DNA of 64,000 nucleotides. Source: Bacteroidia bacterium. Its GTDB lineage: Bacteria; Bacteroidota; Bacteroidia; 2-12-FULL-35-15. The position numbers and the translations under genes were made by a program. Positions 20,699-54,324 of this stretch are shown here, piece by piece; the stretch's first letter is position 1, and each line of letters begins with the position of its first letter. The notes beneath the pieces were generated by a model, which did not search any database, was not told where the DNA came from, and saw only the letters and a list, made by a program, of their open reading frames with translations. The stretch spans positions 186,001-250,000 of the forward strand of contig JAURXZ010000024.1 of NCBI GenBank assembly GCA_030654175.1. Direction: 5' to 3'.

Positions 20699-20756
20699 CT
20701 CCAACTTCCGTGATTCTTTATAATGATTTAAGACTCTTCTCAAAGAGGATAATGCT

Positions 20757-20850
20757 GCGTAAGGGATTGCAACGTAAATCCTTTTCTGTTTAGAAAAGAT
20801 TGAAGTGGAAAGCCCGCCCTTTTCTTCTTTAAGAAAAGGAACGCCCAAAT
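20757..20850 (+). repeat. 3'-flank repeat family, copy B
   Basis: Begins GCGTAAGGGATTGCAACG and ends GGAACGCCCAAAT. Hairpin 1 is CTTTTCT/AGAAAAG with a GTTT loop. Hairpin 2 has a 9-bp stem (20818-20826/20831-20839). It lies 58 nt after the O-antigen ligase stop codon, same orientation. Confidence 0.85.
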
Positions 20851-20873
20851 AAAATTAGAAAAAACCACCTTCA

Positions 20874-33403: not shown

Positions 33404-33800
33404 TTCTGTTTATTTTACAATAATCCTATAAGTGATTCACCGGAACAAGTACGGAAGCATCAACTTATAAACCGGGAAGGCATTTTATTTCCTAAAGTGG
33501 TGATTTTTTTCTTCAAATACACCCCAACAACCTTTTCTATACATAAAAAAGATTTCTGCTTTATTATTTTTATGCTGCTGCAATGCCCTTGCAATGGCGG
33601 TTTAGTCCAATTACAGTCAGGGGCTTTACAAACACTCTTTCCCCATAATTCCATCCATCGTTTTGTTTATTTTCAAGTTGGCACAAATTTTTAATTGTGT
33701 CTTTTATCACAGATTATTGAGCAATAAACTCATTAAAATGAAATAAATCATTGAAAATTATTAAAACGAACCAACTCTTATTCTAAAAAAACAAAAAATC
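33404..33800. other. Intergenic region upstream of the REC-CRP regulator
   Basis: 397 bp with no supportable gene. A 64-codon minus-strand ORF (33460-33654) contains a Cys-rich stretch but no family I recognise. The notable element is a CRP/FNR-like dyad at 33696-33711. Confidence 0.5.
33696..33711. promoter_or_regulatory. Candidate CRP/FNR-family operator
   Basis: TGTGTCTTTTATCACA has half-sites TGTG(T) and TCACA separated as in CRP/FNR sites, 89 bp before the start of a gene whose product has a CRP-type HTH. A second weaker dyad, CACAA-N8-TTGTG (33682-33699), overlaps it. Autoregulation is inferred. Confidence 0.45.
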
Positions 33801-34868
33801 ATGACGATGAATAACACAATCCTTATTGTTGAAGACAACACTGATATTCGCGAAAACGCTTCCAGATTGCTGGAATCTGCCGGGTATAAAACCTTTACAG
33901 CCGATAATGGAAAAATCGGACTGGAGTCTGCCCGCAAATACATGCCTGATCTGATATTGTGCGATATTATGATGCCAATACTTGATGGTTATGGTGTTTT
34001 GCGTGCACTGGAGAATATCCCGGAAATGGCAAGCGTTCCATTCATTTTTATGACGGCTAAAACAGAGAAAGCTGATTTTAGAAAAGGTATGGATCTGGGT
34101 GCTGATGATTATCTTCCAAAACCATTCACCGGTGATGACCTATTGAGAGTAGTGAGCACACGATTAAAGAAAAGCAGGTTGAATAGAAAGACTTTGGAAA
34201 ATAATGCTGACGGAGAAGCTGATTTTACCGACACCACTAAAACATTAAATGATATTAATATTTTAACAGATCACAAAACCCTGAAAAAAGTAAAGAAAAA
34301 AGAAATGTTATTTATGGAGGGGAACTCCTCCAATGTGCTTTACTTAGTGGTGTCCGGGAAAATAATAACCTATAAAACCAATGAATGGGGCAAAAAATAT
34401 ACTACTGAAATTTATAAGGAAAAAGATTTTTTGGGATACGGTTCATTATTCGATGAAGGCAAACACAAGGAGTCTGCGATAGCAATTGAAAATTCTGAAA
34501 TTGCTATTATTCCTAAACAAGAGTTCTTTCAATTGTTACATGCTAATAAAGAAGTGGCGATGAAGTTTTTGAAACTTTTGTCAAACAACCTTTCCGGATC
34601 GGAAGAAAAGTTATTGAAACTTGCTTATGATTCCGCAAGAAAACGAGTAGCAGAAGCTCTGATCTTTGTTTCAAAAAAATATGACATGAATGATAAAAAC
34701 GAATGCACCTTTCCCCTGTATAGAGAAAATATTTCCTCACTTGCCGGAATAACTCCAGAATCGGTTAGTCGCAATCTTACAGATTTCAAAGTGGAAAAAT
34801 TAATTGAAACCGATAATGGTAAAATAAAGATCATCGATCTGCGAAAACTCGAAACGCTTAAAAATTAA
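33801..34868 (+). CDS. Response regulator: receiver + cNMP-binding + CRP-type HTH
   Basis: A transcription regulator (355 residues) joining a phosphoreceiver to a CRP/FNR-like output. Receiver about 4-125: phospho-acceptor aspartate in DLILCDIMMPILDG, switch threonine in FIFMTAKTEKADF, lysine in DYLPKPFTGDDLL. Cyclic-nucleotide-binding-like barrel about 150-260 (EMLFMEGNSSNVLYLVVSGK, DFLGYGSLFDEGKHKESAIA). HTH_Crp domain about 280-350 (LYRENISSLAGITPESVSRN). The effector-domain residues that bind cAMP are not clearly conserved, so the barrel may bind another ligand or none. No kinase is adjacent. A CRP-like dyad lies 89 bp upstream. Confidence 0.92.
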   Translation: MTMNNTILIVEDNTDIRENASRLLESAGYKTFTADNGKIGLESARKYMPDLILCDIMMPILDGYGVLRALENIPEMASVPFIFMTAKTEKADFRKGMDLGADDYLPKPFTGDDLLRVVSTRLKKSRLNRKTLENNADGEADFTDTTKTLNDINILTDHKTLKKVKKKEMLFMEGNSSNVLYLVVSGKIITYKTNEWGKKYTTEIYKEKDFLGYGSLFDEGKHKESAIAIENSEIAIIPKQEFFQLLHANKEVAMKFLKLLSNNLSGSEEKLLKLAYDSARKRVAEALIFVSKKYDMNDKNECTFPLYRENISSLAGITPESVSRNLTDFKVEKLIETDNGKIKIIDLRKLETLKN

Positions 34869-34896
34869 AGATTGAAAATCTTTCGGGGAGCTATCC

Positions 34897-35425
34897 GTGT
34901 TTTATTAAAAAAAACGTTGAAAAAACATCAATAAAAACGGTTTTTCATCAAATAAAGAGGCATTTATTCGAAAAAATAAGATTTTATGCGGATTTCCATT
35001 TCTTTAAGATGGAAAATCAGTAAAAACAAGGTGCTTGCGTGTATCTATCTATTAATAAAGAATGAAAAACAATTAAATAAAGTGGTTTTTATTGAAAAAA
35101 TAGGCGCTTTTTACGAAAAACTGAGGTATTTATTGGGATTTTCAGTTTTTATGGATGGAAATTGCTGAAAGTCGCATCAACGTTTTATCTGTGTTTCTAT
35201 TGAAAAGAAGCAATAATCATTAAAAATGACAATTTTAATCGAAAAATCATGCTTTTTAGGCAAAAAAACAAGGTTTTAATAAAGAATTTTCAATTTGAAA
35301 GATAAAAAGAACAGCGAAAATTTTCACATCAATGTTATATGTGTTCTATTAAAATAGAGCCTAAAATCATCAAAAAATACCATTTTTCATTAAAAAAAGG
35401 AAATTTTATACGAAAAACCATGATT
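34897..35425. repeat. Degenerate tandem array, four ~150-bp modules with phased A- and T-tracts
   Basis: Modules begin at 34897, 35039, 35191 and 35341 (periods 142, 152, 150), each opening with GTGT(T/A)..CTATT followed by A-rich sequence. Before modules 3 and 4 the sequences CATCAACGTTTTATC and CATCAATGTTATAT also match. Inside modules, A-runs and T-runs alternate: in module 3, A-runs start at 35222, 35242, 35262 and T-runs at 35233, 35253, 35274; in module 4, A-runs at 35372, 35392, 35413 and T-runs at 35383, 35404. The ~20.5-bp period with T-runs halfway places a tract about every helical turn. The fourth module is cut off by the PEBP start codon at 35420. A 60-codon ORF inside (34986-35168) is not convincing. 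The function is unknown. Confidence 0.7.
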
Positions 35426-35896
35426 TCACAGGAAATTCTACTTTCTAAAGAATTAAAAGCATTGGATGTTACAAGTAGTGCATTCGAAAACCAAAAATTA
35501 ATTCCTGTAAAATATACCTGCGATGGGGAAAATATAAATCCCCCCTTAACAATTAAAAATATTCCACTTGAAGCCAAAAGCATGGTGCTGATAATTGATG
35601 ATCCTGATGCCCCTATAAGGGCCTGGGTACATTGGATCGTATGGAATATTCCGCTTGGCAAAGAGATAAAAGAAAATAGCGTTCCCGGCATAGAGGGCTG
35701 GAATGACTTTAGAAACCAGAATTATGGCGGCCCGTGCCCACTTTCGGGTGTGCACAGGTATTTTTTCAAAGTTTATGTATTGGACGACTTGCTTGACCTT
35801 AAACCCGCATCAACAAAAACCGAACTCGAAAAAGCAATGAACCCGCACATTATTGCATTTGGCGAATTGGTTGGATTATATAAACGAGCCGAATAA
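35420..35896 (+). CDS. YbhB/YbcL (PEBP) family protein
   Basis: A small cytosolic protein (158 residues) of the phosphatidylethanolamine-binding protein family, bacterial YbhB/YbcL branch. Conserved ligand-site blocks are present: CDGENINPPLTIKNIP, LIIDDPDAPIRAWVHWIVWN, and GGPCPLSGVHRYFFKVYVLD (the GxHRY motif). The reading frame is open to 35339, but the upstream 27 codons lie in the last module of the A/T-tract array and are not protein-like, so ATG 35420 (MISQEILLSKELKAL) is chosen; family length agrees. Members are suspected modulators of signalling or lipid binders; there is no defined reaction. Confidence 0.9.
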   Translation: MISQEILLSKELKALDVTSSAFENQKLIPVKYTCDGENINPPLTIKNIPLEAKSMVLIIDDPDAPIRAWVHWIVWNIPLGKEIKENSVPGIEGWNDFRNQNYGGPCPLSGVHRYFFKVYVLDDLLDLKPASTKTELEKAMNPHIIAFGELVGLYKRAE

Positions 35897-42293: not shown

Positions 42294-42326
42294 AAACCTG
42301 ACAGGTTTTCAAAATCTGTTAGGTTT
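42294..42326. repeat. AAACCTGACAGGTTT-type palindrome
   Basis: AAACCTGACAGGTTTT pairs with AAAATCTGTTAGGTTT across the centre with two G·T or mismatched positions. It is one of several unrelated palindromic elements in this gap. Confidence 0.6.
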
Positions 42327-42489
42327 AACTGCCTTTAAAAATAAAATTATTGGATTAATTTGTAACAAGTGTTGGTAATATATTTCACCGTCATCCCGAA
42401 GAGCCACTTTTGGCGATTAGGGATCTTGTTCTTCTGGGTAGGTCTTTTTTATTGAGCCCACTCTCCTTCTGACTATAAAGAAATGGGGT

Positions 42490-54064: not shown

Positions 54065-54186
54065 AGATTCTAAAACGAAAGCATTTGGAAAATGTTATGA
54101 CTTCTTACAAATATCGCAATCATAAACCGAAATACAAAGGAGTTTAAGTGATTGTATGTTTTTATTGTGAAAATTTAAGGAAAATC

Positions 54187-54307
54187 ACCACTAAGGCACT
54201 AAGAACACAAAGACTCACTAAGATTTTTTCTAAGTCATTACTTAGTGGTATAAAGTATTGTAAGATTTTTTCTAAGTGTTACTGGGTGTTCTTAGTGCCT
54301 TAGTGGT
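54187..54307. repeat. CACCACTAAGGCAC inverted repeat, copy 2
   Basis: Perfect 22-bp arms, 54187-54208 and 54286-54307. The interior carries an exact 17-bp direct repeat, TAAGATTTTTTCTAAGT, at 54219-54235 and 54261-54277. It lies 17 bp after the gatA stop codon on the minus strand. Same arm sequence as copy 1 at 21664-21804. Confidence 0.85.
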
Positions 54308-54324
54308 AAAAAGGGCAGGATGAA

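Follow-up and report, generated by a model that had tools for sequence, protein, structure and literature searches.

A tandem array of about 530-550 bp (34893-35419) fills the intergenic gap between a REC-CRP regulator gene and the PEBP gene that follows it on the same strand; it comprises four copies of one module, diverged from each other and spaced 147 bp apart on average, and is predicted to be intrinsically curved. In our estimate, the chances are about even that it represents an element of curved DNA in front of the PEBP gene, which would have arisen by serial duplication of a segment of ~147 bp and would shape PEBP transcription. All positions refer to the window, i.e., the whole stretch of 64,000 nucleotides that was analysed, which belongs to contig C31 of a 5.1-Mb Bacteroidetes metagenome-assembled genome (G000); the features are compiled in Table 1. 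The original prediction, made from the letters of the window, described a region that is constitutively curved and was built up by repeated duplication, and this account agrees with the predicted curvature, the tandem structure and the tract-specific conservation reported here. It overlooked three points: the resemblance of the modules to the PEBP leader plus gene start, a period equal to 14 helical turns of 10.5 bp, and the frequent occurrence, in some sister genomes, of intergenic arrays with periods at multiples of 21 bp (21n arrays).

Table 1. Features of the array and its neighbourhood (window positions), and the 21n arrays sampled in other genomes.
Feature	Position	Strand	Basis
REC-CRP regulator gene	33801..34868	+	ORF, 355 aa; PF00072, PF00027, PF13545 (Pfam)
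Module 1, most upstream	34893..35035	+	alignments of modules; profile match 34894-35011, 74 bits
Module 2	35036..35185	+	alignments of modules; profile match 35040-35157, 77.5 bits
Module 3	35186..35333	+	alignments of modules; profile match 35187-35305, 66.9 bits
Module 4, PEBP leader through start codon into first PEBP codons	35334..35460	+	alignments of modules; profile match 35338-35453, 71.7 bits
A-runs and T-runs (35, at least 4 bases each)	34900..35417	.	tract list, phasing, tract conservation
Top conserved non-tract block	35292..35335	+	identical 14- and 24-bp blocks in G017, AATTTGAAAGATAA and CAGCGAAAATTTTCACATCAATGT
PEBP (YbhB/YbcL family) gene	35420..35896	+	ORF, 158 aa; PF01161, TIGR00481
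21n arrays sampled	L314-L333, L334-L373, L272, L276, L166		genomes G003, G004, G014, G026, G027, G034

The regulator combines a response-regulator receiver, a cNMP-binding and a Crp-type HTH domain (Pfam), and the nearest matches of the protein come mostly from uncultured Bacteroidetes MAGs. The neighbourhood of the two genes is retained in several related genomes (L012, L065 and, with one additional gene in between, L014) and therefore suggests a functional link between REC-CRP and PEBP. No PEBP was found in viral contigs. About 50 bp 5' of the REC-CRP gene, the window holds the dyad AATGAAATAAATCATT (33737-33752) with CRP-type TGA-N6-TCA spacing, which is identical in G017, a genome of the same genus, and is a possible REC-CRP autoregulatory site.

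Four modules had been proposed with starts at 34897, 35039, 35191 and 35341, and all of them indeed open with GTGT; likewise, all A-runs and T-runs on the earlier list are found, give or take about one base. Module 3 contains the longest chain of alternating tracts, with runs at 35222 (A), 35233 (T), 35242 (A), 35253 (T), 35262 (A) and 35274 (T). Aligned to itself at lags of at least 100 (Smith-Waterman), the array scores 79, compared to 15.9±2.3 and a maximum of 23 in 200 dinucleotide shuffles, and its G017 ortholog scores 86, compared to 16.6±2.6; the claimed self-similarity at ~150 bp thus lies far above shuffled sequence. Autocorrelation is strongest at a lag of 147, followed by 146 and 20, with further secondary lags at 21 and 41, and peaks at 146/145 in G017. 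In the power spectrum of A4/T4 positions, the maximum lies at 10.5 bp for unsigned tracts (A+T) and at 21.0 bp for signed ones (A minus T); all 95 AT-rich 560-bp windows drawn from 400 kb of G000 stay below both values, in line with the suggestion that periodicity at 10-21 bp would exceed that of other AT-rich gaps. The tracts are phased with a Rayleigh R of 0.52 at 10.52 bp. The array holds two chains of five to six alternating tracts; such chains are absent from a 400-kb sample of its own genome and from the rest of the window, and 400 kb of other genus genomes contained one five-long chain.

Tandem Repeats Finder (TRF) missed the array when run on the window because the copies are too diverged. 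Using BLAST and a sequence profile, no convincing homologous modules were found at other loci of G000; in G000 as in G017 the modules are confined to a single locus, and the array does not qualify as a dispersed repeat (REP, MITE). Short BLAST matches of 28 bp in other genomes (query 184-211) have weak E-values. Elsewhere in the window, a dispersed repeat of ~105 bp at 20748-20863 has more than 30 copies in G017, and both a short dispersed repeat at 42294-42390 and a short palindromic one at 54181-54311 match many G017 contigs on both strands. A protein-coding repeat is ruled out by stop codons in all six frames of the array in both species (6-19 per frame), and no open frame is kept.

The intrinsic curvature of the array is a prediction of models. 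In a dinucleotide wedge model, whose parameters were checked on the textbook sequences phased A6, GA4T4C and GT4A4C only, curvature over 400 bp amounts to 0.22, compared to a maximum of 0.157 among 391,820 positions of the same genome and of 0.175 in other same-genus DNA examined, the genomic background consisting of sampled stretches. This makes the array, as modelled, the most curved 400-bp stretch of the window and of ~790 kb of DNA from its own genome and others of the genus, with an end-to-end distance of 24% of the contour and a genomic mean of 80%. A second calculation, in which 3 degrees per tract base are summed in phase, gives 156 versus a background maximum of 126 in 200-bp windows and 247 versus 226 in 500-bp windows. 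The array combines two traits of intrinsically curved DNA, i.e., A-tracts of at least four bases at the helical repeat of 10-11 bp and a high predicted curvature relative to the genomic background.

Of 35 further genomes in the genus, one (G017) has an orthologous array, located at the same place and 80% identical; G017 also keeps the PEBP start codon. The same gene pair lacks the array in G022 and in the groundwater MAG L065. Between G000 and G017, indels in the array are mostly single-base, and the array difference is 0.18, compared to a synonymous difference per site of 0.39 in PEBP and 0.40 in REC-CRP. Only 10 of the 174 sites in A-runs and T-runs changed (5.7%), compared to 47 of 221 other A/T sites (21.3%; odds ratio 4.4, p=1e-5), and by this alignment the set of runs is the conserved part of the array. 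The contrast between tracts and spacers is absent from other aligned intergenic DNA of the two genomes (49/450 vs 176/1349, p=0.25). When the observed substitutions and indels are placed randomly, curvature comes to 0.11±0.03, compared to 0.20 and 0.22 in the real sequences, which are matched by 1 and 0 of 400 simulations in the two directions; the phasing power itself beats chance retention in one direction only, from G000 to G017. Tract-specific conservation and retention of curvature therefore support selection on the phased tracts and suggest, for a single species pair, that it acts on the bend of the DNA rather than on an encoded message. The top conserved block outside the tracts sits ~85-130 bp 5' of the PEBP ATG and is a candidate promoter or operator of the PEBP gene, a function inferred from its conservation and position; Bacteroidetes promoter motifs and CRP/FNR-type dyads were not recognised in the array.

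The eight modules of G000 and G017 align end to end, and module 4 crosses the PEBP start codon. The array had been thought to stop exactly at this codon; however, likeness in a fixed register extends past it, for ~40 nt of the PEBP reading frame. Of 42 positions, 25, 20 and 22 in the tails of modules 1, 2 and 3 are identical to the ~42 nt around and after the PEBP start, with 14-16 identities expected (p<0.0005, 0.01 and 0.01 in G000; p=0.0025, 0.04 and 0.004 in G017). Gapped alignment of the tails to the PEBP 5' end at free positions is mostly not significant, and because only the fixed-register test supports the likeness of the tails, the link to the PEBP start is graded as moderate. The likeliest origin of the modules, judging from these alignments, is serial tandem duplication of a ~147-bp segment with the PEBP leader, probably plus the first PEBP codons.

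Weak matches in sister genomes proved to be other helically phased arrays, with units of 21 bp in G027 and 42 bp in G003. A length of 21 bp corresponds to two helical turns, and also to seven codons. Searched with a pattern in which six A-runs follow each other at exactly 21 bp, G003, G004, G011, G013, G014, G026, G027 and G034 each give 52-125 overlapping hits, G001 gives two, and all further members of the genus, the window genome and G017 among them, give none; three other families (G038, G044, G050) also have hits, though fewer. In 880 kb of array-rich genomes, most of it chosen away from hits already known, there are 38 intergenic tandem arrays, of which 26 have a period at an exact multiple of 21 bp and 31 lie within 1 bp of one, compared to 1 of 15 at an exact multiple in 1120 kb of array-poor genomes; here, intergenic means outside ORFs of at least 150 aa rather than outside annotated genes. 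The 26/38 deviate from the expectation of 1/21 with a binomial p=6e-26, and rich differ from poor genomes with p=5e-5. Periods of 21, 42, 63, 84, 105 and 126 bp were seen, with units that are locus-specific, few being common to several loci, and 40-85% AT. Dyad symmetry (z>3) characterizes about half of the arrays (23 of 49 examined, the window array among them). A codon-position signature was not found in the 21n arrays; a stop-free frame exists in 26 of 28, with 20.3±2.0 expected, and some of them may encode 7-residue repeats. Two 21-bp arrays of G027 (L272 5030-5062, L276 1498-1540) each lie next to a perfect hairpin resembling a terminator, with the sequence ACAGGTTTTTCGATTGAAAAACCTGTTTTTT or a close variant of it; as the hairpin shares the sequence theme of the array unit, the latter may derive from a terminator stem. 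The literature searched for 21-bp intergenic arrays yielded nothing relevant and no published name. By estimate, certain members of the genus carry ~150 such arrays and other members almost none; so sharp a presence or absence among relatives would suggest that some mechanism reads out the helical repeat or a seven-codon unit.

The window array shares with the 21n arrays its intergenic site, a locus-specific unit, an internal 21-bp unit and a period at a multiple of 21 bp, with lag 147 (7x21) being the strongest, although G017 peaks at 146. However, 21n arrays are usually less diverged, detectable by TRF and present many times per genome, whereas the window genome has essentially one array. 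The array fits the class by period, but not by unit identity or abundance, and is therefore not assigned to it; it may be an old relative. A far-reaching proposal, which we regard as doubtful, is that it is an old, decayed member of arrays quantised to two helical turns, which was kept as a curved upstream element, and that an enzyme or a DNA-coating protein generates or maintains the class. That the array is nothing but a decayed 21n array, left by an amplification mechanism tied to two helical turns, has a very small probability: the period, the internal lags of 20, 21 and 41 and the reality of the class in sister genomes speak for it, but the 21-bp A-run pattern has no match in the window genome or G017, the units are too diverged for TRF, and 14% of arbitrary periods would fall within 1 bp of some multiple of 21.

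In the preferred reading of a curved element acting on PEBP, A-runs and T-runs follow each other about every helical turn and alternate in a 21-bp unit of two turns. As the tracts recur with each turn, their small bends would add up on a single side of the helix and give the 550 bp a strong curve. The upstream curve might wrap the DNA onto RNA polymerase and thereby aid PEBP transcription; alternatively, it could fix the apex of a supercoil or a nucleoid-protein site beside the PEBP promoter. We infer that the bend was kept because of a role in PEBP transcription, a view against which it counts that PEBP orthologs elsewhere lack the array. The same absence from other genus members with the gene pair, together with the tandem and diverged nature of the copies, is what a neutral satellite would predict, in which slippage or unequal exchange produced three duplications of an AT-rich leader, with curvature as a by-product without a role. 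Such a satellite would not be expected to diverge more slowly than synonymous sites, to show a tract-specific conservation that is not seen in other intergenic DNA, or to retain its curvature against simulated mutation in both directions, and we consider this explanation rather unlikely.

Selection on shape instead of spacer sequence would also suit a site of chromosome architecture (for a nucleoid protein, gyrase or the apex of a plectoneme) that lies before PEBP by chance and does not specifically regulate it, and the literature ties phased A-tracts to nucleoid proteins and supercoil apices (PMC3940949, PMC4132750, PMC9825172). Yet module 4 is the PEBP leader, from which the other modules appear to be derived, and a general site is not expected to copy the start of a gene; we judge this possibility unlikely. 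An array of small-RNA or 5'-leader RNA units, which the original prediction had also entertained as a set of diverged small RNAs, is very unlikely. It would draw on A-runs that are able to pair with T-runs and on the GATTT...GAAA-like inverted pair, which had been reported for three modules and is clear in modules 1 and 2, but only partial in module 3. However, no conserved RNA structure results from this pair, the eight modules have no consensus structure, the fold of the whole region has a z of -1.5 with 6 of 100 shuffles being as good, and neither a match of the array in Rfam at relaxed threshold nor an intrinsic terminator within it was found.

Curved DNA with helically phased A-tracts is known upstream of bacterial promoters, i.e., in UP elements and upstream curved regions. 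With these the array has in common the helix-phased A-runs and T-runs, the intergenic position 5' of a gene and the strong predicted curvature; it differs by its length (~530 bp with 35 tracts), by the alternation of A-runs and T-runs, and by its four duplicated modules of ~147 bp that seemingly include the gene start, and no consensus promoter was recognised in it against which the tracts could be aligned. The statement that no named element has this nested architecture holds in the literature searched. In Helicobacter pylori, sabA carries a single promoter-proximal homopolymer tract that changes in length by slippage and alters the DNA axis and polymerase contact (PMC4081817); this rheostat shares A-/T-tracts near the promoter region of a gene, whereas in the array the phased tracts are numerous, short and spread over diverged modules. 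The literature on phased A-tracts in promoters and nucleoids makes a role as a curved upstream element plausible (PMC9825172, PMC4132750, PMC3940949, PMC4081817). Clusters of the “structural code” show the same 10-11 bp AA/TT periodicity, which has been tied to bending and nucleoid folding, but are weak statistical signals or clusters of ~100 bp in both coding and non-coding DNA (PMC4132750, PMC3940949). The array, in contrast, is a single dense and discrete element of tandem build that is conserved in an ortholog. In bacterial genomes, phased A-tracts mostly amount to a statistical signal whose role is under debate; a discrete element of 530 bp, in which the tracts and not the spacers are conserved, makes the claim of selection on shape testable at one locus.
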